From Shewanella psychromarinicola (GTDB taxonomy: Bacteria; Pseudomonadota; Gammaproteobacteria; Enterobacterales; Shewanellaceae), in assembly GCF_003855155.1 (NCBI RefSeq), contig NZ_CP034073.1:1922001-1986000 (forward strand): a stretch of 64,000 nucleotides of DNA. The letters are read 5' to 3'. A model generated the notes under the pieces. It ran no database searches, was not told the DNA's origin, and saw nothing but the letters and a program-made list of their open reading frames with translations. Position numbers and translations under genes: made by a program. Below, piece after piece: positions 38,581-48,705 of the stretch; the first letter of the stretch is position 1; each line of letters starts with the position of its first letter.

Positions 38581-38700
38581 GACTTGCCATAGATGCGTCA
38601 ATGCGCTTTGTTAGCAACATCAATGGCAAGTGTGATATTGCCGACTTGAAATAATCCCATTTTATCGTTTTATCTAATCTCTTATCCCGAGTTGGGATTA
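38581..38700. repeat. Diverged repeat, copy A, at the channel gene 3' end
   Basis: This segment of about 120 bp aligns by eye with 39590-39710 in the same orientation. Shared blocks include GCGTCAATGC/ACGTCAATAC, TTTGTTAGCAA/CTTGTTGGCAA, ATGGCAAG, and ATATTGC-GACTT-AAA. It also contains an internal inverted repeat ACTTGCCAT/ATGGCAAGT. It ends in a stem-loop whose last bases overlap the channel gene's stop codon. The stem-loop family is described in the findings. Confidence 0.6.
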
Positions 38701-39507
38701 TTTTCGCTGATTGAGTTGGTTACGTAATGTGGTGATCTCTTTGAGCATTTGCTGCTGATTTTGTTCCATGCGTTCAAGGGCTAATTCTAGCTTGGTATTG
38801 ATTTCTGCTTTATGGGCTTCTTGAGCCTCTTGTGCTTCATTACGTTCTTGCTCATCTGGGGCGACGAAAACAGATGCCATATAACCGGAGATAACCCCAA
38901 AAAAGCTAACACCACTGATAATCACCAGTCCACCAATGATATGACCGACCGTAGTGACGGGATAAAAATCACCGTAACCAACCGTTGATATGGTCACTAA
39001 TGCCCACCAAATTGCTTGTTCTGCGGTTTGGATGTTGGCGTTAGGTTCTGCACTTTCTACCAATAAAATAAGCACCGATGCGGCGGCCAAAATTAATATC
39101 ATTGCCACCAGTAAACTGGCTAGCGTTGTTTGTTTTCGTTGGCGCAATAATGGGATTAATAAAGATCGGCTCATGCGGATCAGTCGGATCACGCGTAATA
39201 TTTGGAATATGCGTGCAAATCGCAATGGTTCAATGGCAGGGATGCTGGCAATAAAGTCTATCCAGTGATGCTGGAGGTAGTAGGTTTTACTGCGTGCTTT
39301 AAATAAGCCAACAAAAAAATTACTCATAAAAACCATGCATATTGCACTGTCGATATACAGCAGCACTTTGTTGGTTTCGGCGTCTAATCGACCAAAGGTA
39401 ATGGTGAGCACTATGACCACTGACACTAATGATAACACCATCATCGCAAGTTCGAACGGGCTAGGACCATCGACATTTTTTAGCGACCAAGCTTTAGATC
39501 CAAGCAT
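38698..39507 (-). CDS. Voltage-gated-like potassium channel (ion transporter)
   Basis: This inner-membrane ion channel has six membrane segments. The S4-like helix is rich in Arg (RFARIFQILRVIRLIRMSR), and the K+ selectivity filter TVGYGD lies in ISTVGYGDFYPVT. After the last segment comes a charged, heptad-like C-terminal tail that is probably a coiled coil for tetramer assembly. I place the start at ATG 39507, with GAGG eight bases upstream. The longer frame to 39636 is made of intergenic repeat sequence. The gene is separated from the DUF2491/PspA cluster by a terminator and repeat B but has the same orientation. Channels of this type are often near such clusters. Confidence 0.85.
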   Translation of the reverse strand: MLGSKAWSLKNVDGPSPFELAMMVLSLVSVVIVLTITFGRLDAETNKVLLYIDSAICMVFMSNFFVGLFKARSKTYYLQHHWIDFIASIPAIEPLRFARIFQILRVIRLIRMSRSLLIPLLRQRKQTTLASLLVAMILILAAASVLILLVESAEPNANIQTAEQAIWWALVTISTVGYGDFYPVTTVGHIIGGLVIISGVSFFGVISGYMASVFVAPDEQERNEAQEAQEAHKAEINTKLELALERMEQNQQQMLKEITTLRNQLNQRK

Positions 39508-39589
39508 GTAGTTAACCTCAACTCTGGATAATAAATGGTTATCAAATAGCCTTTGTTGCGCGACCGGAGTGGTATCAACTAACAATAAG

Positions 39590-39710
39590 CCCGCTATTGA
39601 TACGTCAATACACCTTGTTGGCAAAACAGATGGCAAGCTTAATATTGCAGACTTAAAACCAAACCGTTTTTAACGATTTATCCCCTCACTTATCCAGCGT
39701 TAGGGGTCGT
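39590..39710. repeat. Diverged repeat, copy B, upstream of the channel gene
   Basis: This is the partner of 38581-38700 in the same orientation, with roughly two thirds of bases matching by eye over about 115 bp. It ends in a stem-loop with stem CCCCT/AGGGG (39681-39685 and 39701-39705), extended by AACGA/TCGTT (39671-39675 and 39706-39710). Confidence 0.6.
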
Positions 39711-39769: not shown

Positions 39770-39802
39770 AAAAAAACGCACAAGACAGGAGTCTAGTGCG
39801 TT
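39770..39802 (-). terminator. Terminator of the PspA/DUF2491 cluster
   Basis: The outer stem AACGCAC (39775-39781 with 39796-39802) and inner stem AGAC/GTCT form one long hairpin with single mismatches. On the minus strand it is followed by at least six T. It closes the cluster downstream of the RHH-like gene. Confidence 0.85.
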
Positions 39803-39836
39803 GTTTTTATTTGGCATAATTAGCGTAAAACCGTGT

Positions 39837-40172
39837 TTATTTTGCTGATTTAGTATCAACAAAATGGACTAGGTCATCTAATACCCGTTTCTTGATTTCC
39901 AGCTGTGATTCACTCTCTAAACCGTATCTTTGCGCTAAAATCACGTAGTCTTCAGCATTTAATGATACGGTCAAACGGGGGCGTTTAGGACGTTTAGATA
40001 CTGACAGTCCGAGTATAGTGCGGATTTGGTCTGAAGGACTTACGCCTTTGTCTAAGGCCGCTTTTCGGATAGAGTATTGAAACTTCTCGTCCAGATCAAA
40101 AGCCACTTGAGTCGCTTTTGCCGCTTGTTGGTTTTTAAGCCATTTCTCTGGTAACGGTTTGCCTGAGCTCAT
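39837..40172 (-). CDS. Small protein with two apparent ribbon-helix-helix units
   Basis: This 111-residue protein is the last gene of the PspA cluster. I do not recognise a named family. Two segments each read as a short beta strand followed by two helices. The first is VAFDLDEKFQYSIRKAALD with KGVSPSDQIRTILGL, and the second is LTVSLNAEDYVILAQRYG with LESESQLEIKKRVLDDLV. That is the ribbon-helix-helix pattern, and two copies in one chain would make a pseudo-dimer that binds DNA. A basic linker (KRPKRPR) joins them. It could be the cluster's own regulator, acting at the shared 13-bp palindromes. The structural reading is inference. Confidence 0.55.
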   Translation of the reverse strand: MSSGKPLPEKWLKNQQAAKATQVAFDLDEKFQYSIRKAALDKGVSPSDQIRTILGLSVSKRPKRPRLTVSLNAEDYVILAQRYGLESESQLEIKKRVLDDLVHFVDTKSAK

Positions 40173-40195
40173 TCGAAAATCGTCTCCTAGCTGTA

Positions 40196-40849
40196 TCAGC
40201 TTGCTGGCCAGTACTCTCTAATATCGGTCAGTGGTCGATATAAAGTTAACATCACTTCGGTATCTCCACTTTCGTAAACTTCAATATCCACGGCGTGAGA
40301 GTCATCAGAATTAACTAAACTATAGCCTTCAAATCCTTCACCGCGGGCATCATCGTCATTTTGAGGCGGTTTAAGGTCTCGATAATCTTGACGATGAAAA
40401 TAACCAAAACAGCCAAACTCGACTTGATGATATTCATCACTAAGCCATTTATCCCACTCAGCACTTAGCTCGGAGGGAAGCGTTTGCACGCTGAGTGTTG
40501 CTTTGCCTGGTTCTTCAAATATTTCAGCAAAGGCCTCAAGATCAAACAATTGTTCAACCTCCGCGCGATTGATTTTCATTGAAATACTTAAGTAGGGTTC
40601 ATCTTCTTTTATATAGGATAAATAAATTGCGCTGCCGCTATGGCCACGTAATAAGAATTCACAAAGCTGCGAGCGCTGGTATTCATAAGTATGAATACCC
40701 TCAACCTTAAGCTGTTGCCCGCGCAATTGCGTAGGCAAAGCAAAACTGTCATCAAAGGTGATCATATCACCCTTGAGCAGTTTATTGGGATGGTCAAGCT
40801 GGCGCTTCGGGGCTTCTTTTTTGCCAAATAGGCCGCTAAGAAATCCCAT
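40196..40849 (-). CDS. DUF2491 family protein (YjfK-like)
   Basis: This 217-residue protein matches the DUF2491 family, represented by E. coli YjfK in the yjfIJKL cluster. Recognisable parts are the N-terminal GFLSGLFGKKEAPKR, the middle GHSGSAIYLSYIKEDEPYLS, and the acidic C-terminal part that includes EVYESGDTEVMLTLYRPL. It is soluble and acidic. The function of the family is unknown. Six bases separate it from the upstream PspA-like gene, so they are co-transcribed. Confidence 0.75.
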   Translation of the reverse strand: MGFLSGLFGKKEAPKRQLDHPNKLLKGDMITFDDSFALPTQLRGQQLKVEGIHTYEYQRSQLCEFLLRGHSGSAIYLSYIKEDEPYLSISMKINRAEVEQLFDLEAFAEIFEEPGKATLSVQTLPSELSAEWDKWLSDEYHQVEFGCFGYFHRQDYRDLKPPQNDDDARGEGFEGYSLVNSDDSHAVDIEVYESGDTEVMLTLYRPLTDIREYWPAS

Positions 40850-40855
40850 ATTCGC

Positions 40856-41545
40856 CTAGCCTTTTCGTGCTTTGATGCGATCTAACACGGCATTGGCATT
40901 CGACTTTTGCTCACCAATACCTGCTTGAGCTAGTTTGGCATGTAATGACTTGTCGCTACTTTCATCCGCTAATGTTTCTGACGCCTTTAAGCGGTCATCA
41001 AACTGCTGTTGACGTGCTTTGATACGCTCAAGTGAATCTTTAGCATTAAGCAGTTTAGAGTTGCTTGAGGCAAACGAGTCAGTAATAGTCGCGGTTGCTT
41101 TTTGCACGCTTTCAGTGGTTTTAACCATGGTTAATTGACGTTGGTAATCATTTAACTGACGCTCGGTCTTTTTGACTAAGTCTTTTAAACGCAGCGCATG
41201 GGAACTAAAGCTGTCATTGGCAGTTTGTTGTTCGGATAACTCTTCGTCTAACTGAGCAATCTTTTCAGCAATTTCAATAGCTAATGCTTCATTACCTTTG
41301 TCTAGCGCTTGGGCCACATAACCCTCGTGTTCGGTAACGCTGCGCTTTAAGCGATCAATTTCACGACTGGCCTGCATTTCTTTTGCCATGACATCAGTTA
41401 ACTCACGCTTTGCGCGAGTTAAATGCTTTTCTGCATCACGAATTTCTTGTTCAAAAATACGGGTTGAGTTTGCGTCAACGACAGTCTGGCCAACTTCGGT
41501 TGCACCACCACGAAACGCTGTAAGAATCTTGTTTAGAATGCCCAT
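40856..41545 (-). CDS. PspA/IM30 family protein (YjfJ-like)
   Basis: This is a PspA/Vipp1-type membrane-remodelling protein of 229 residues, almost wholly helical and coiled-coil (EIRDAEKHLTRAKRELTDVM, KTERQLNDYQRQLTMVK). PspA proteins form ESCRT-III-like assemblies on stressed inner membranes. This member is of the YjfJ type rather than the pspABC operon type, judged by its neighbours. DUF2170 lies 10 bases upstream and DUF2491 six bases downstream, the order seen in E. coli yjfIJK. Confidence 0.85.
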   Translation of the reverse strand: MGILNKILTAFRGGATEVGQTVVDANSTRIFEQEIRDAEKHLTRAKRELTDVMAKEMQASREIDRLKRSVTEHEGYVAQALDKGNEALAIEIAEKIAQLDEELSEQQTANDSFSSHALRLKDLVKKTERQLNDYQRQLTMVKTTESVQKATATITDSFASSNSKLLNAKDSLERIKARQQQFDDRLKASETLADESSDKSLHAKLAQAGIGEQKSNANAVLDRIKARKG

Positions 41546-41555
41546 AATTGGCTCC

Positions 41556-41969
41556 TTAGTTTAAAAATTCGACGAGTTCGTCGATAACTTCCAGACAGTT
41601 GTCTGACAGAACGGCTAATTCTTGTTCAATTTCTTCCATGCTTGATTGCACAGACAAAGCACCGTAAACCACATATTTATCATCGATTTTCGCAAATGAT
41701 GATAATGGCATTGGAATGTTGAGCTCTAACATGGTCTCAAACATTTCAGCGCGGCGATCTTGGTTTACTTCGTTTTCGCCCCACAGATAACTGATACACA
41801 ATATTTGGTTGTCAGTTACTGATACAAACACCGGAATTTCTTCACGGCTGACAATATTGACTTGTAACACTTCAACATCACCGTCAATCGGATAACAATC
41901 AAACTGAAAACCGGTTTTGCTTTGATCGCAAAGTCCATTTAGGTGACTTGCAATGGTATGGATGTTCAT
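41556..41969 (-). CDS. DUF2170 family protein (YjfI-like)
   Basis: This soluble, acidic protein of 137 residues belongs to the DUF2170 family (E. coli YjfI). The start at 41969 is supported by AAGGA six bases upstream and by the predicted promoter start near 42000, which rules out the longer frame to 42014. Typical segments are MNIHTIASHLNGLCDQ and CISYLWGENEVNQDRRAEMF. It is the first gene after the second promoter of the cluster. The molecular function is unknown. It is always found with a YjfJ-type PspA in the examples I recall. Confidence 0.78.
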   Translation of the reverse strand: MNIHTIASHLNGLCDQSKTGFQFDCYPIDGDVEVLQVNIVSREEIPVFVSVTDNQILCISYLWGENEVNQDRRAEMFETMLELNIPMPLSSFAKIDDKYVVYGALSVQSSMEEIEQELAVLSDNCLEVIDELVEFLN

Positions 41970-41983
41970 ATTTGTCCTTAATT

Positions 41984-42032
41984 GACATATTATGTCTGTG
42001 AGTAACGATAGCATCTAGACATAATATGTCAA
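41984..42032 (-). promoter_or_regulatory. Promoter of DUF2170-PspA-DUF2491 with two palindromic operators
   Basis: On the minus strand, a -35 TTGACA (42027-42032) and a -10 TATCGT (42005-42010) are 16 bases apart. Two 13-bp palindromes, GACATAATATGTC at 42018-42030 and GACATATTATGTC at 41984-41996, lie over the -35 and just past the expected start site, 34 bp centre to centre. This is a repression layout. Confidence 0.75.
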
Positions 42033-42048
42033 GCGCTATCTGGTTCAA

Positions 42049-43809
42049 TTAAAAAAGATTAATTACTTCATATTCTGACCAAGCTGCTAGGTGGTAATGA
42101 TACAGCTGTAATGAACCAATTTCGTTTACGTTAATGCTATCGATATCATCATAAAAATCACCCGGGAATTCAAATGAAGCCTTGATTAAGCCTGGGGTTA
42201 ACCATTCTTCTGGCACTGGTAGTGTCTGTAATGTCGCGAGTCGTTGTTGTGGGTTTTTGCCCATTTTACTGCCCATGCTCCAGCCCCATTCACCAAAGCT
42301 AGGCACATTATGATGATACTGTTTTACATTAAATCCTGCTGCAGTCAGTGTCTTGCCAACAGACATAAACGCTTTGCGTGCATGATAGGGGGAGGTTGAT
42401 TGCACTGTGATGACACCATCGGCGCTGAGCAGCTCATTGAGTTTTCGGTAAAATAAATCCGAATAGAGTTTGTTTAAGTCAGGATGGCTTGGGTCGGGTA
42501 AGTCAACAATGATGGCATCAAACATTTGGCCTTTTTGGATCAGCTTATCAACCCCATTAAACGCATCGTCAACGACCAGCGTTAATCGTGGATCGTTTAA
42601 CGAATTTCCATTTAATGCTAGTAATGCATCGCTCAAACGTTGCGGCATATCTGCTGGCGGTGATGTAAATAAGCTCAACAAGTCTTGATCTAAATCCATC
42701 AATGTAACCGCTTTAGGTTGCCATTTGAGCACTTGTTTTAAGCCTAAACCATCGCCGCCGCCAATAATGAGCACGTTATTGTGCCGGGCACTGGCCGCTA
42801 ATGTTGGATGAACTAAAAAGCTGTGGTAAATATGCTCGTCGCTACTAGAGAATTGCAAACGCCCATTGATGTATAAATTATAAACTGGCGCTAACCCTCC
42901 ACCACGTAAACGCTCAGTAAAGTTGAGCTGCTGGAACCGGGTTGCTTTGGCATACACTACATGATCTTTATACAATAGATTATTAAAATGTTGTTCCCAA
43001 TTAGGGCCTTTAACCGCTAAAATTCCAATCACAACACTGGCAATAATATGGCCAATAAGCAGCCATTTAACATGACGAATTTTGGCCCAAAAGCGCCAAA
43101 TAAATACTAGTCCAGCGAGTAAATTAACACTTGCGGTTAGCGCAGCCGCTAATTGAATATCAATGGCTAGCATAAAGCCGACCCAAATAGCCGCGCCTAT
43201 ACCTGCACCAATGTAATCGGCACCATATATGGTGCCGGCATTATGCAGTAAGTGCGCTTCAGATAAGGATTGCCGAACGCGAGCAATAAGCGGAATTTCC
43301 ATACCAATCATTAACCCAAGCAATACACCCCATACATAAGGTAAGTATTTGCTGAGGGTTTGCAGGCCAGCAATAAAGCCGCCATTGGGTAAATGATCAG
43401 GAGGCAGACCCAGCGTATTGGCTATAGCTAAAGGAAGTTGTTGGCCAAACCCAATGACCGCAGCGGTAACAATAATGGCAAACGAGCCGCACAGTGCTAC
43501 TGTTAACTCGAGCATGGCAAAGCCTGTGAATGCGCATTTTATTTTACGGGCGGCAAATGCTCCTACGCCCATAGACACAATCATCAAACCTATCATGGTG
43601 TAAATAGCGGCTTCTAGCGCGCCTAAAATACGCCCCGCATAGTGCGATAATAAGTATTCATAAATAAGACCGCATCCCGCCAGCGAGGCCATGATGCCGA
43701 GCAATAAGGCATCATCAAGCCACGATACTTCACGGGAGGGAAGGGAACTTTGCTGTGGGTCCCCCGGTGTTGTGTTAACGGGAAGATCATCGAGCAAAGG
43801 TGTTGTCAT
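42049..43809 (-). CDS. Membrane-fused spermidine-synthase-like aminopropyltransferase
   Basis: This 586-residue protein has a hydrophobic N-terminal half (about residues 30-260) with seven or eight membrane segments, fused to a C-terminal aminopropyltransferase-like Rossmann domain. That domain has IYHSFLVHPTL, the dcSAM-binding LIIGGGDGLGLKQVL, and the catalytic-Asp region DAIIVDLPDPSHPDLNKLY. It probably uses decarboxylated SAM on a polyamine or similar amine, on the cytoplasmic face of the membrane. The DUF350 gene begins three bases upstream, so they are coupled. In E. coli the comparable cluster has YjfC instead. The substrate is inference. Confidence 0.85.
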   Translation of the reverse strand: MTTPLLDDLPVNTTPGDPQQSSLPSREVSWLDDALLLGIMASLAGCGLIYEYLLSHYAGRILGALEAAIYTMIGLMIVSMGVGAFAARKIKCAFTGFAMLELTVALCGSFAIIVTAAVIGFGQQLPLAIANTLGLPPDHLPNGGFIAGLQTLSKYLPYVWGVLLGLMIGMEIPLIARVRQSLSEAHLLHNAGTIYGADYIGAGIGAAIWVGFMLAIDIQLAAALTASVNLLAGLVFIWRFWAKIRHVKWLLIGHIIASVVIGILAVKGPNWEQHFNNLLYKDHVVYAKATRFQQLNFTERLRGGGLAPVYNLYINGRLQFSSSDEHIYHSFLVHPTLAASARHNNVLIIGGGDGLGLKQVLKWQPKAVTLMDLDQDLLSLFTSPPADMPQRLSDALLALNGNSLNDPRLTLVVDDAFNGVDKLIQKGQMFDAIIVDLPDPSHPDLNKLYSDLFYRKLNELLSADGVITVQSTSPYHARKAFMSVGKTLTAAGFNVKQYHHNVPSFGEWGWSMGSKMGKNPQQRLATLQTLPVPEEWLTPGLIKASFEFPGDFYDDIDSINVNEIGSLQLYHYHLAAWSEYEVINLF

Positions 43810-43812
43810 AAA

Positions 43813-44712
43813 TTAAGCCATTAACGCCGTAAGAATAAGAGCAACAGCAATACTAATTGCCATTTCAACGGCTGCAATACCAATGTTGTGTTGTTTTTCA
43901 ACTTCTTCAGCCAGATTGATACCGGCTAACACCAGTTTTTTCACTATGGCGATCAACAGCGATAACACCACCAGCATGATCAGTGAAAAAACGCACCAAC
44001 TAATAATGTTGCTTAAATGGGCGCTTGGGTCATAAACAATGAAATGGCTGGCCGCTTTAAAGCTTAACGCCATCGCTATCATATAGCCGCTGTGACGTAG
44101 TGCTAATGCGGTTTGATTTTGGGTTAATGCTTGTTGCATTGAGGCGCCTTGATTACGTTTAGCATAACGTTTTTCACGTAATCGAGTGAGTATGACTAGC
44201 ATCAATTGTGAGATTAAAAATGCACTAAAAATACCAATAAAGGTATCTAGGGTAAGATCTTCTGCCCACATTAATACTGCGCGAATAATAATCGCAGTGG
44301 CAATGGCAGCCGCGGCGTCAACCACAGCAACAGAGACATTACCTTTAAGAATTTCATCGTTCTTAGCAAATTCATTTAAGGCTATTTTATCATGTAAAAA
44401 CCGGCCTAATTTAATTAGCACTAAGCCAAACAAGCCGTAAGCCGACATGCCAATAGCTTCGGTTAAATAAGACGGTGCAGCTTCGCCAGTGATGGCCCCT
44501 GTAAGCACAATCCCTAATGCAGCGATCGCACCTGCGGTACTAATACCAAACGCAAAATTGTCGCGCTCTGCAAGCTCAGCACTGCTATTGACTTTAATGC
44601 TCCAACCTTGCAAATAACGCATCAACGCCAGTAAAATTATAGCGATGGTTAAATCAATGGCTAAAATAATCGCCAAATGTTGAGTTAAGCCATATTCTTG
44701 AAAAAATGTCAT
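43813..44712 (-). CDS. DUF350 family membrane protein, two DUF350 units (YjfL-like)
   Basis: This integral inner-membrane protein has 299 residues and about eight helices. Two DUF350 repeats can be read: the first around NFAFGISTAGAIAALGIVLTG and SAYGLFGLVLIKLGRFLHD, and the second around YMIAMALSFKAA and the C-terminal IAVALILTAL. Each repeat has about four helices, so the protein is double the length of single-unit YjfL. Transport or membrane-stress roles have been suggested for DUF350 families, but none is proven. It lies 13 bases after the lipoprotein gene. Confidence 0.82.
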   Translation of the reverse strand: MTFFQEYGLTQHLAIILAIDLTIAIILLALMRYLQGWSIKVNSSAELAERDNFAFGISTAGAIAALGIVLTGAITGEAAPSYLTEAIGMSAYGLFGLVLIKLGRFLHDKIALNEFAKNDEILKGNVSVAVVDAAAAIATAIIIRAVLMWAEDLTLDTFIGIFSAFLISQLMLVILTRLREKRYAKRNQGASMQQALTQNQTALALRHSGYMIAMALSFKAASHFIVYDPSAHLSNIISWCVFSLIMLVVLSLLIAIVKKLVLAGINLAEEVEKQHNIGIAAVEMAISIAVALILTALMA

Positions 44713-44725
44713 GGTGAGTCCTTAC

Positions 44726-45688
44726 CTATTTTCCACGGCTAACACCGCGACTAGTGCGGCTGCTTGAGTTACGGAAACTACTGTCTTTTGAATAGCTCGA
44801 ACGGAATTTTCTACTCGCGCTTTGGGTAGTGCTACTGGCTTTGGGTACGCTCGCACTTTGACGTGACAAGCTTGTTGAGCCTGTTCGAGTTTTGGCATAA
44901 GGGCTATCGAATCGTTTCCCTTGGCTGTTAAAACGTTTCTTGGTTTGTTCAAAGGTTTTTGCTTGCGAGGTCGCTTGGCTTGGTGATGTGTAACGGTAAC
45001 GTCCTACATCATTGTAGTAGCTGTAGCCACGGTTACCTGACCAACGACCGTAACCTATTGGACGAGAGAAGTTAGAAAACATCGCATACATGCCATACCA
45101 AGCCCAGATTGAGGTGCCGCTTGAATTATTTTGCCAACTACCGTAAGACGGATTGCCCACCAGCTGACTACCAGCACCACTGCCTTCGGAGCCATTTGCC
45201 AGCGCTTCAGCTTCACGGCTGATAGCATTGACTCTGGCCAGTTTCCCATTAGACATATCGGCAACTACATTGACGGGATCGGACAGCATATCGTTATACA
45301 AACTGCTGTCGGCGGCTTGATAAATATTCTGTGCTTCAGCTAATTGCTGGTCTAAATCAATAAAGTTAGCGCTGTTGTTTAAGTCTTTATTACGACGGGT
45401 TAATGACGTAAACATTGGACCTTCTGTGCCAGCATCTTTAGCCAACTCTTCCAGCAATGGGGTTAAATCGGATTGACGCTGAGCGAGAATACGGCAGTAT
45501 TGTTTGAGTAATGTCGCATTACGCAGCTGATTGTTGTTGAGCGAACTAGCCAACAGATCAAGACGTTGTTGGGCAAGTTGCTGGTACTGAGCAATTTGTT
45601 CCGGTCTGTTATCACCGCAACCGCCAAGGGTTAACGTGACAAACAATACGGTTATCAATGTGAGTACACGGGGGAGGTGACCTACCAT
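44726..45688 (-). CDS. Envelope lipoprotein with Ser/Arg-rich tail
   Basis: This 320-residue protein has a lipoprotein signal ending in LTLGGC (lipobox LGGC). It then has a helical region of about 100 residues, a Gly/Tyr/Trp-rich middle (WAWYGMYAMFSNFSRP, YSYYNDVGRYRY) and a Ser/Thr/Arg-rich tail. The layout, with aromatic or glycine middle and SR-rich end, recalls DUF1190 proteins such as YjfM/YgiB, but I see no clear sequence match. It heads the cluster and may link the outer membrane to the inner-membrane genes that follow. The ATG has GGAG nearby. Confidence 0.6.
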   Translation of the reverse strand: MVGHLPRVLTLITVLFVTLTLGGCGDNRPEQIAQYQQLAQQRLDLLASSLNNNQLRNATLLKQYCRILAQRQSDLTPLLEELAKDAGTEGPMFTSLTRRNKDLNNSANFIDLDQQLAEAQNIYQAADSSLYNDMLSDPVNVVADMSNGKLARVNAISREAEALANGSEGSGAGSQLVGNPSYGSWQNNSSGTSIWAWYGMYAMFSNFSRPIGYGRWSGNRGYSYYNDVGRYRYTSPSQATSQAKTFEQTKKRFNSQGKRFDSPYAKTRTGSTSLSRQSASVPKASSTTQSASRKFRSSYSKDSSFRNSSSRTSRGVSRGK

Positions 45689-45790
45689 GTTTTCTCCAAA
45701 TGTAGATTTTTCATGTGCTAATTCAATATGACACAGGTTATAGTAATCTGGGTGTCAATGATATTAATCTGAACATTAGACTGACTGATA

Positions 45791-45819
45791 GATATACCAC
45801 TCGCGACATAATATGTCCA
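45791..45819 (-). promoter_or_regulatory. Promoter of the lipoprotein-DUF350-SpeE genes with operator
   Basis: On the minus strand, -35 TGGACA (45814-45819) and -10 TATATC (45791-45796) are 17 bases apart. A palindrome GACATAATATGTC at 45805-45817 overlaps the -35, exactly as at the other cluster promoter. The site also lies 33 bp upstream of the glnE ATG, so glnE could be affected. Confidence 0.7.
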
Positions 45820-45849: not shown

Positions 45850-48705
45850 ATGCAAAACCAAGGTGACAAGGTATTATCTGCCGCGATGTTAGCCAGTGCA
45901 GATCGTTACTGGTTAAGACTCTGTGATGTTTGGCCTGAAGCTAAAACAGCACTGACCGCCGTGCAACAGCAAGAGTTAAAGACCGTATTTGGCTTGAGTG
46001 ATTATATGGGAGAGCAACTTTGCCGTCATCCAGAATGGATTGTGCAGTTATTTAATGGCTTATTAGATGATGTTGTGCGCAGTGAGTTTGATGCTGGGTT
46101 ACATTCGCTGTTAGCGGAATTAACGCAAGAAGAACAAGTTAAATCGGTTTTACGTCGTTATCGTAATGTGCAAATGGTTCGCTTAGCGTGGCGTGATTTT
46201 TTAAATTACACCCCAGTCGAAGAGTCATTACTCGATTTGTCTGCATTAGCAGAGGCATTGGTTATTGCTGGGCGAGATTGGTTATACCAAGAGATGTGTA
46301 AGCAATACGGTACACCGATGAGTGCAGAAGGTAAGCCACAACCTTTATTGATTTTGGGGATGGGGAAATTAGGCGGACGTGAGCTTAATTTTTCATCTGA
46401 TATCGATTTAATTTTTACCTTTCCAGAACATGGTGAAACCGTTGGCGGTCGACGGACTCAGGACAATCAACAATTTTTTATTCGCATGGGCCAGCGTTTG
46501 GTTAATCTACTCGACCAAGTGACTGTAGATGGATTTGTATTTCGGGTCGACATGCGTTTACGTCCTTATGGTGAAAGTGGTCCTTTGGTGGTCAGCTTTA
46601 GTGGGTTAGAAGACTATTACCAAGAGCAAGGTCGCGATTGGGAACGTTATGCCATGGTCAAAGCGCGAGTGCTTGGTCCTTGGTCGGGCTATTGTGACGA
46701 GCTCCATGATTTATTACGCCCGTTTGTTTATCGGCGTTATATTGATTTTTCTGCCATTGAATCACTGCGTAAAATGAAGCAACTGATTGCCCAAGAAGTT
46801 AGGCGTCGTCAGTTAACTGACAATATTAAGCTTGGTGCTGGCGGGATCCGTGAAGTCGAATTCGTGGTGCAAAGTTTTCAGTTGATCCGTGGCGGACGCG
46901 AGCCTGCATTGCGACAGCAAAGTTTATTTGGCGCCATTGATACCTTGTACAGCCTAGGGCAGTTGGAATATTTAGCCGTCGATGAGCTTAAACACAGTTA
47001 TATTTTATTGCGTCGCGTGGAGAATTTATTGCAGGCCATTGACGATAAACAAACGCAAACCCTGCCCAATAATGAACTCGATTGGCAGCGTTTATGTTAC
47101 CCGCTAGGGGTAGAAGACGAAGCGGCACTTCGCCAAAAAATCAACAAGGCGATGGCAACCATTCATGGTCACTTCAATGACACAGTAGGCGGGGCTGACA
47201 GCCACGAACATAATGATCATTGGACCTGTTTATTTTGGAATATTCAGCAAGATGAACACGCTAATGCCTTGTTGCAAGAGCAACAAATCGATGATGCCGA
47301 ATTATGGCCACTATTAAATGAGTGGCATCAAACGGTGTCCAAACGTTCTATCGGGCCGCGAGGACGTGAAACGCTCGATAAGCTAATGCCTAAGTTGCTG
47401 GAAGAATTAGTCAATCAAGTTAAACCGAGTCAAGCGTTTAAACCTGTGTCAAAAGTGCTGGATAAAATCTTAACCCGTACCACTTATCTAGAGCTTTTGT
47501 GTGAAAACCCGGGCGCTCGACAGCAGTTAGTCAGTTTGTGCTGTGCAAGTCCTTGGATTGCGCGCGAGCTGGCCAATTTCCCGATGCTGCTAGATGAGTT
47601 AATTGATCCGTCGCAGCTGTATGACATTACCTCGATTGATGATTACCCTAGCGAATTACGTCAGTACTTGTTACGGGTACCAGAAGATGACATGGAACAG
47701 CAAATGGAAGCGTTGCGGCAGTTTAAATTGTCTCAACAGCTCAAGATTGCTGCCGCCGATGTGACTGGCGTTTTACCTGTGATGCAGGTAAGTGATCATT
47801 TAACCTTTTTAGCCGAAGCCATTATCGAGCAAGTCGTGCTGCAAGCTTGGCATCAAGTGGCGTCTCGCCACGGTATTCCCGAGGAAACTAGCCCTAGCAA
47901 CATGGGGTTTGCGGTGATTGGTTACGGTAAACTCGGTGGCATTGAGCTAGGTTATGGTTCTGATTTAGATTTGGTTTTTTTACACGGTCATACCGGTTCT
48001 GGCACTACAGATGGCAAACGCCCGATCGACAATGGCTACTTTTACTTAAAACTGGCGCAGCGAATTGTGCATTTATTTGCCACCCGCACAACCTCGGGTG
48101 AATTATATGAAGTCGACATGCGTTTACGACCCTCTGGCGCATCTGGCTTGTTAGTCAGTGAAATTGAGCATTTTGGTGCCTATTTACAACAAGAAGCCTG
48201 GACGTGGGAGCATCAAGCTTTAGTGCGGGCTCGTTTTGTGTTTGGTGATTATTCGCTGGCAGGACGCTTTAGTGAGCTACGCTCGCAAGTCTTGCAAATA
48301 GAGCGAGATAAAGTGGTATTGGCCAAAGCCGTCAGGGACATGCGTATCAAAATGCGTGAGCACTTGCTCCGCGTTGAGCCAGGGCAATTTGATTTAAAAC
48401 AGAGTGCTGGTGGGATTGCTGACATCGAATTTATCGCTCAGTACCTAGTCTTAGCCTATGCCTACCAATATCAAGAGTTAACCATTTGGTCTGATAATGT
48501 GCGTATATTTGAAGTATTAGCTGAGTTGGAGTTATTGCCTATCATGCAAGCCCAGCAGTTAACTCAAACCTATTGCTGGCTCCGCGACGAGAATCATGAA
48601 CTGACATTGCAACAATTACCCAGTAAATTATCCAAGCAAAGCGTGCAGCAAAAAACAGAAAGTGTGGTGGAGATTTATAATCATATTTTAGGGGTTGACG
48701 GTTAA
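45850..48705 (+). CDS. glnE: Bifunctional glutamine synthetase adenylyltransferase/deadenylase
   Basis: GlnE adds or removes AMP on glutamine synthetase in response to PII protein and glutamine. The two nucleotidyltransferase domains are clear, [20 protein letters not shown] in the N-terminal half and [20 protein letters not shown] in the C-terminal half. I place the start at ATG 45850; the upstream 45 codons overlap the operator region and are not family-like. This gives 951 residues, close to the E. coli length of 946. No partner gene follows. Confidence 0.95.

Follow-up and report, generated by a model that had tools for sequence, protein, structure and literature searches.

We describe a candidate operator and its likely regulator in a 64,000-nucleotide stretch of the Shewanella psychromarinicola genome (assembly GCF_003855155.1, contig NZ_CP034073.1), hereafter the window, which covers positions 1,922,001-1,986,000 of a single contig of 5,134,849 bases. 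The minus strand of the window carries a cluster of seven open reading frames (ORFs), running from a lipoprotein gene (45688) through genes for a double DUF350 membrane protein, a membrane-fused SpeE-like protein, a DUF2170 protein, PspA/IM30 and a DUF4178-like protein to a gene for a small ribbon-helix-helix (RHH)-like protein (39837). The operator is a 13-bp palindrome, GACATAWTATGTC, with the pattern GACAT-WWW-ATGTC. From sequence comparisons we propose, with a probability of about 0.73, that the RHH-like protein controls, and most likely represses, its own PspA operon and a set of scattered membrane-maintenance genes through this palindrome. The more general link between the RHH gene, the operator and the target set is very probable. 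What appears to be new is the operator together with its regulon and its link to the RHH gene; the gene neighbourhood is already known.

An operator at the cluster and at distant genes

The cluster holds three exact operators in two promoter regions. The 79-bp gap before the DUF2170 gene contains operator O1 (GACATAATATGTC, 42018..42030), which overlaps the -35 box of the DUF2170 promoter, and operator O2 (GACATATTATGTC, 41984..41996), which sits between the -10 box and the DUF2170 start. Operator O3 (GACATAATATGTC, 45805..45817) lies upstream of the lipoprotein gene, before the divergent glnE. The DUF2170 promoter is a predicted sigma-70-like element (42005..42032, minus strand), TTGACA-16 bp-TATCGT with a preceding TG, whose 10/12 match to consensus is not proof of function; the last four bases of TTGACA fall in O1, and both TTGACA and the -10 region are kept in 68 aligned relatives. 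The preliminary description of this DNA had proposed shared operators within the cluster, and these were borne out by the three exact copies of GACATAWTATGTC in the window: the form GACATWWWATGTC matches the same three sites and is absent from 100 shuffles. When up to two mismatches were allowed, the window gave 4 matches against 1.9 expected by chance, and the exact sites alone are therefore informative.

The arrangement recurs among the relatives that we compared by name, which are Shewanella and Parashewanella loci fetched via the RHH-like protein (the best 80 of 356 relatives). All 80 loci carry exactly two exact operators directly upstream of DUF2170, spaced 34 bp apart in 68 of them. A site near the lipoprotein gene was counted in 56 of 79 loci, where the search places the lipoprotein start only loosely. 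By eye, O1 is flanked in 68 aligned Shewanella promoters (window 41975-42060) by a second inverted repeat, AGATAGC ... GCTATCT, one arm of which overlaps the -10 box.

The preliminary description had treated the operators as a local feature. They are present at the cluster as it said, but their main meaning is genome-wide: the 5.13-Mb genome contains five exact copies of GACATAWTATGTC against about 0.28 expected from the base composition of the window. Three are those at the operon, one lies 50 bp ahead of the nfeD ORF and one lies 46-47 bp ahead of htpX. Five further sites in this genome have one mismatch. In one case the gene 96 bp downstream is homologous to a small membrane gene associated with exact sites in three other Shewanella; another site (G000:C1:629359, L006) precedes a sodium/calcium-exchanger gene (Na_Ca_ex) by 70 bp; and the remaining three fall inside or at the edge of ORFs. 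Across 97 genomes of the genus we counted 584 exact sites (mean 6.0) versus 3 for a reversed control pattern. On the whole-genome and genus counts together, we reject a local chance feature. Sites are found in 96 of the 97 genomes and the RHH gene in 96 of 97, with genome G063 as the shared exception, although this amounts to a single loss event among related genomes that are not independent. The cluster's PspA was not found by search in G063, which has one PspA-family gene.

Co-occurrence of the operator and the RHH gene across the order

In a sample of 295 genomes from 99 genera of the order, the RHH gene is present in 91 genomes, 19 genera and eleven families, and 82 genomes contain the exact motif. 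Beyond the window's own genus, at least two sites occur in 43 of 70 RHH-positive genomes versus 2 of 204 RHH-negative genomes (Fisher 4e-29), and at least one site in 48 of 70 versus 13 of 204. When family f11 is set aside, 47 of 48 RHH-positive genomes outside the genus have at least one site. Of the RHH-negative genomes, G176 and G203 alone have two or more sites. In G203 the absence of the gene is likely an assembly gap, because this assembly comprises 600 contigs at 88% completeness, the RHH gene is present in the eight further family members that were sampled, and a pair of its four exact sites lies directly before DUF2170 (operon L159).

The exact motif is missing from 22 RHH-positive genomes, namely 21 of family f11 and G335 of family f25. 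All 22 genomes of f11 instead carry a symmetric variant, GACATTWAATGTC, located 1.86-2.21 kb upstream of the RHH gene (compared by hand), and in three of these genomes another copy is present at a different place. Since GACATTWAATGTC is found in 70 of the 295 genomes, including single copies outside f11, it is informative solely by its place in that family. In ten further families we inspected the region before DUF2170 at 20 operon loci: eight have one or two exact sites, eight (all f11) have the variant, two (L097, L105) have a one-mismatch form and two (L101, L102) have none. L101 is cut by a contig end, and in L102 DUF2170 is not adjacent to the RHH gene.

DUF2170 (PF09938) is present in 126 of the 295 genomes, comprising the 91 RHH-positive genomes and 35 RHH-negative ones (compared by hand). 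DUF2170 was rejected as sufficient for the sites, since 32 of these 35 genomes have no exact site; the other three are G194 (one site), G292 (one) and G203 (four). Because DUF2170-positive, RHH-negative genomes are mostly site-free, it is the RHH gene, and not DUF2170 alone, that goes with the sites. Overall, the operator follows the regulator gene as a dedicated operator should, with G335, G176, G203 and the one-site RHH-negative genomes as exceptions.

This distribution bears on whether a different, unlinked regulator binds the palindrome and the RHH gene is merely a member of the regulon. Binding by the RHH-like protein is deduced from co-occurrence and its RHH fold is not firmly established, which leaves room for such a regulator. 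It would, however, need to come and go with the RHH gene each time. In the patchy families f6 and f7, all sampled RHH-positive genomes and no RHH-negative genome have at least two sites; G063 lost sites and gene together; a symmetric operator change accompanies the diverged RHH-like protein of f11; and genomes with DUF2170 alone are mostly site-free. We consider an unlinked regulator improbable.

The operator at htpX promoters

Of 30 genomes searched for HtpX, 25 gave a match at E<=1e-40, and the 250 bp upstream of each gene were scanned; at this threshold it was not found in G126, G303, G136, G101 and G239, of which G136, G101 and G239 are RHH-positive. An operator with no or one mismatch lies 27-64 bp from the htpX start in 12 of 12 RHH-positive genomes versus 0 of 13 RHH-negative genomes, six of the former (G000, G111, G118, G120, G154, G178) having been chosen with the site already seen and a seventh, G187, having a site known beforehand beside the neighbouring S51 gene. 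The best match in all 13 RHH-negative genomes has 3-5 mismatches. The RHH-positive sites are exact in ten genomes and have one mismatch in two (f2 and f11, one genome tested each); the five genomes examined blind gave three exact and two one-mismatch sites. These promoters have a TTGA-type hexamer 16 bp before TATTAT, which falls within the operator in 9 of 12. By eye, the -35 box CTTGAAA resembles that of a sigma-32 promoter, and the operator covers the -10 box (L190-L196; f15, f16, f25); joint control of htpX by heat shock and the RHH-like protein is possible from this arrangement.

The htpX comparison also speaks to the view that the cluster is an ordinary polyamine/PspA operon under purely local control, with the sites elsewhere arising by chance. 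This view finds support in families f2, f7 and f11, which have few or no exact sites beyond the psp-like operon or another PspA gene. Against it stand the genus-wide excess over the control pattern and the split at htpX, and the tested f2 and f11 genomes keep a one-mismatch site at that gene. Purely local control is very improbable.

Genes beside operators elsewhere

The Shewanella neighbours were taken from 40 loci: 38 sites from 12 genomes among those listed, plus both sites of the own genome that lie outside the operon. Each cluster of neighbours was named from a single scanned representative. At 12 loci the adjacent gene is nfeD (followed by an SPFH gene in 12/12), at 11 htpX, at five a bPH_5-domain membrane protein, at three AIM24, at three a small membrane protein weakly similar to DUF4834 and at one RadC. 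Two loci have one small ORF each, one has the DUF2170 operon at a contig end, and two have no visible neighbour, one of these also at a contig end.

Part of this set recurs in other families. An htpX gene stands beside the operator in f12, f15, f16, f23 and f25, and nfeD or SPFH genes do so in f6, f12, f15 and f16, where three of the SPFH matches are 22-26% identical. NhaA is found at 10 sites in f6, f16 and f23, at nine of which it was named by 54-80% identity to the scanned L122 protein. YqiJ-like genes adjoin operators in f6, f15, f16 and f23, two of the four being confirmed by Pfam (the YqiJ-like genes at L111 and L184, and in f7 at L103, were named by eye, L103 having no Pfam match), and further PspA genes do so in f6, f7 and f23. 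A Tim44-like gene (L161) and an M16 gene (L129) were named by eye. Of three sites read from RHH-negative genomes, neither L148 nor L165 has a neighbour of this kind, and the third belongs to the G203 operon (L159). The preliminary description had proposed a role in envelope stress; this role is strengthened by HtpX, NfeD/SPFH and the other operator neighbours.

Three observations concern individual families. In G214 (f7), a YqiJ-like gene (L103 730-1738; by eye, no Pfam match) begins 1 bp past the RHH gene, an adjacency that would physically link the regulator to flotillin-type partners. In f12, a membrane-type ORF of about 100 residues has a pair of adjacent exact operators ahead of it (L128 2529-2579, L132 2503-2539); the L128 ORF has no Pfam or NCBIfam match. 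In f6, a secreted-type protein of about 100 residues adjoins the operator in four genomes (L109, L114, L116, L120), and in G226 (L120) a PspA gene lies just past it.

The sites could in principle be elements of DNA architecture or transcript hairpins instead of protein operators. O1 and O2 are inverted copies, the transcript is foldable (z -3.2) and a further inverted repeat flanks O1. Yet most sites at htpX, nfeD and nhaA consist of a single 13-bp palindrome, they are located at promoters, and their occurrence follows that of one protein gene. We give this explanation almost no weight.

Repression or activation

Because the operators overlap or adjoin promoter boxes, repression is the likelier mode and activation the less likely one. 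O1 lies over the -35 box and O2 past the -10 box of the DUF2170 promoter, and the probable -10 box lies inside the operator at most htpX promoters; these placements suit steric repression. At nfeD the geometry differs. There, a -10 box placed 17 bp past the operator's TTGACA was rejected in favour of a conserved TATAGT, which in 11 of 15 promoters stands 33-34 bp away from where the operator starts. In f16, 5 of 5 nhaA promoters have a similar -10-like hexamer at 34 bp. If these hexamers are the -10 boxes, the operator centre falls near -40, which is compatible with an activator; the position of TATAGT therefore makes plain repression less likely and an activating or dual role more likely. RHH proteins that act as both repressor and activator exist, AmrZ being one example. 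The probable -10 box within the htpX operator and the position of O2 downstream of the DUF2170 -10 box stand against an activator. On balance, we regard an activator or dual regulator as unlikely, though a serious alternative, and retain repression by the RHH-like protein as the preferred reading.

Identity of the RHH-like protein and points against the proposed regulon

The proposed regulator (39837..40172, minus strand) is a protein of 111 residues whose gene presence tracks the operator genome by genome, and it may also regulate its own expression. Its gene is the last of the cluster and is present in 80 of 80 named loci, which were themselves fetched by this protein. Its closest named relatives, from Shewanella sp. 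SG41-4, SR43-4 and S. frigidimarina, are 95-96% identical. R64, R66 and T68 are invariant across 103 sequences. In the predicted model the N-terminal half is helical, followed by an extended C-terminal stretch at 61-72 and helices at 73-83 and 90-110, with no strand assigned by DSSP. Structural matches by Foldseek and VIA-align are weak. Tandem-RHH proteins, namely AvtR and F-plasmid relaxosome chains that we take to be TraY, match at a Foldseek E of about 2, which is no evidence of homology, and an unrelated chorismate mutase scores 4.8, between AvtR and the relaxosome chains.

Several observations weigh against the proposed regulon, some of them concerning this protein. It has no Pfam RHH match, and none of 20 relatives has one above cut-off, with one relative giving a NikA-like match at E 0.04; the NCBIfam match is a weak RelB/DinJ match alone (E 0.055). 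Since no curated RHH profile is matched, we use the label RHH-like. AlphaFold2 models from 30 and 103 sequences show no ribbon strand and place a helix at the N-terminal ribbon-strand position, and a profile search of solved structures returned a single row, RpoH at E 1.2, and no useful solved relative. The label RHH is taken from Ravi et al., from source names and from the sequence pattern. Other points concern the sites: G335 has the RHH gene yet no exact site, and the one f23 genome examined (L102) has no operator near its DUF4178-RHH pair, so autoregulation is not universal. Neighbour lists vary by family, other sites have non-recurring or family-less neighbours, and in f25 four of six fetched sites lie inside ORFs. 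The partly preselected htpX genomes, the single loss in G063 and the nfeD and nhaA promoter geometry count on the same side.

Proposed mechanism and significance

In the mechanism that we propose, the RHH-like protein would bind GACAT-WWW-ATGTC at the three operators and two promoter regions of its own operon, at htpX and nfeD-SPFH in nearly every Shewanella with sites read, at AIM24 and the bacterial-PH-domain protein in some Shewanella, and at NhaA, YqiJ and further PspA genes in other lineages. Envelope damage would release it from these operators. Release would switch on membrane remodelling by PspA and flotillin-type scaffolding by SPFH, NfeD and YqiJ, together with degradation of membrane proteins by HtpX and ion balance through NhaA. 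The sensory partner could be DUF2170, whose number of genomes is the one to be expected if every one of the 91 RHH-positive genomes has it, or PspA. In this genome the regulon would run parallel to a classical pspF-pspABC system. The operator, its position at promoters, its occurrence together with the RHH gene and the recurrence of certain neighbours are read directly from sequence; binding, repression in preference to activation, the envelope-stress signal and the sensory partner are inferences.

A broader claim, to which we give slightly less than even odds, is that at least eleven families possess a second, PspF-independent phage-shock-type response, in which an RHH-like regulator with DUF2170 and PspA as damage sensor jointly controls ESCRT-III-like repair, flotillin/NfeD, HtpX and, in several lineages, Na+/H+ exchange, with operator and regulator changing together in one lineage. 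If true, the regulon would assign a function to a phage-shock-protein (PSP) gene neighbourhood that is widespread but untested, and would offer a genetic entry point to it. It would place PspA, flotillin/NfeD and HtpX, which are usually studied apart, under one switch, and f11 would be a case of an operator and its regulator diverging together. It also suggests candidate functions for several uncharacterised membrane proteins whose genes bear the operator. The proposal is testable in S. oneidensis MR-1, with a single gene, a single 13-bp site and few targets.

Genes and layout of the cluster

The genes are packed as previously described, with measured gaps from lipoprotein to RHH gene of 13, 3, 79, 10, 6 and 23 bp when the DUF2170 start is taken as the ATG at 41969. 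All of the following lie on the minus strand. The lipoprotein (44726..45688) has the lipobox LTLGGCG by eye and matches no curated Pfam or NCBIfam family above cut-off, the Ctha_1186 model being absent among its matches. The double DUF350 protein (43813..44712) matches Pfam DUF350 at 8.7e-39 in two stretches. The SpeE-like aminopropyltransferase (42049..43809, 586 residues) matches PRK03612 over its full length with 653 bits (cut-off 472), with Spermine_synth at 325-518 and an N-terminus judged membranous by eye. The DUF2170 protein, of the YjfI/BacA, CesT/Tir-like type (41556..41969), matches Pfam at 8.3e-38, its ATG being preferred over a longer ORF. PspA/IM30 (40856..41545; Pfam PspA_IM30 9.8e-41) is other than the classical PspA equivalog. 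The labels PspA, DUF2170, SpeE-like and double DUF350 were thus upheld by Pfam and NCBIfam. The 217-residue protein (40196..40849) was originally called DUF2491, a label that was not borne out: no DUF2491 match is listed at E<=1, and a weak match to Pfam DUF4178 (E 0.0028, 18.2 bits, under the cut-off of 25) is found instead.

A terminator-like hairpin with a T run (39770..39812, minus strand; -15.8 kcal/mol, z -6.6) follows the RHH gene. Beyond it, a K+-channel-like gene (38698..39636, minus strand; Ion_trans 3.7e-19) starts 200 bp past the RHH gene. It adjoins the cluster as described, but co-transcription is doubtful here, and because the strong T-run hairpin precedes it, the gene probably forms a separate transcript in this genome. 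The channel is a frequent neighbour (78 of 80 named loci) and nearly abuts the RHH gene in f15 and f16. On the other side, glnE (45850-48702, profile match confirmed) diverges from the lipoprotein gene.

Failure of these genes to co-occur elsewhere had been set beforehand as grounds for refutation, and the co-occurrence held, each core gene being present in 78-80 of 80 loci: DUF2170, PspA and RHH in all 80, the lipoprotein, DUF350 and DUF4178-like genes in 79 each, and the SpeE-like seven-transmembrane (7TM) gene in 78. The complete eight-gene order including the channel is kept in 76. In f15 (L098 7896-8440), a shorter frame, coiled-coil by eye and possibly a degenerate PspA, replaces a recognisable PspA between DUF2170 and RHH, followed by the K+ channel.

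Comparison with known systems

We found no description of the operator, its RHH tie or the regulon in the open full-text literature, with closed-access papers, preprints and supplements outside this scope. Within it, the motif string occurs in just an unrelated plant paper, and no paper combines three of RHH, HtpX, envelope stress and NfeD; the main text of PMC3223726 contains none of the terms 'psp', 'htpX' and 'ribbon'.

The preliminary description did not know this version of the neighbourhood to be characterised, but the gene set including the terminal RHH gene is already in print as a PSP gene neighbourhood (Ravi et al. 2024, PMC11237479), and the operon is not new in this sense. It corresponds to the second CesT/Tir-PspA operon group of that paper (examples AAN56744.1, AAN56746.1 and the DUF4178 protein AAN56747.1), described there as a lipoprotein, DUF350, a 7TM-spermidine-synthase-like protein, a DUF2170-type CesT/Tir protein, PspA, DUF4178 and sometimes a final RHH. 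Here, too, DUF2170 stands beside PspA_IM30 (10-bp gap) with DUF350 and a membrane-fused spermidine-synthase-like domain. In the published group the lipoprotein carries a Ctha_1186 domain and the DUF4178 protein is beta-rich (PMC11237479). A term search of the main text of PMC11237479 found neither an operator nor HtpX, no regulon was seen there, and its section on this group reports no experiment; nor did we find experiments on the operon in the literature covered.

Two further systems share parts of the cluster. With E. coli yjfIJKL, the third group of Ravi et al., it has DUF2170, a YjfJ-type PspA and DUF350 proteins in common. That group has DUF2491, DUF1190 and an ATP-grasp ligase (PMC11237479), whereas the cluster has no listed match to DUF2491 (YjfK) and instead carries the DUF4178-like, lipoprotein, SpeE-7TM and RHH genes and the operators. 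Up-regulation of yjfIJKL is reported in heat-evolved E. coli (PMC12492005). The Pseudomonas bac cluster shares the DUF2170-PspA pair (BacA and BacB, respectively), and the cluster's DUF2170 matches the BacA model partially (50.7 bits, cut-off 300); the bac cluster is described without a spermidine-synthase-like gene and with a putative sigma-54 site upstream of bacA (PMC10948618).

Finally, the same genome also holds a classical phage-shock cluster near 2,966,967 (G000:C1, L294), with pspF divergent to pspA, pspB and pspC, all four above their NCBIfam cut-offs. Both systems are PspA-based, but they differ in the PspA itself, which scores 10.2 bits against TIGR02977 (cut-off 243 bits) in the cluster versus 312.9 in the classical locus. 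Unlike the classical PspF/sigma-54 system, the cluster lacks PspF, PspB and PspC, and it combines a non-classical PspA with a sigma-70-like promoter and a candidate RHH regulator.

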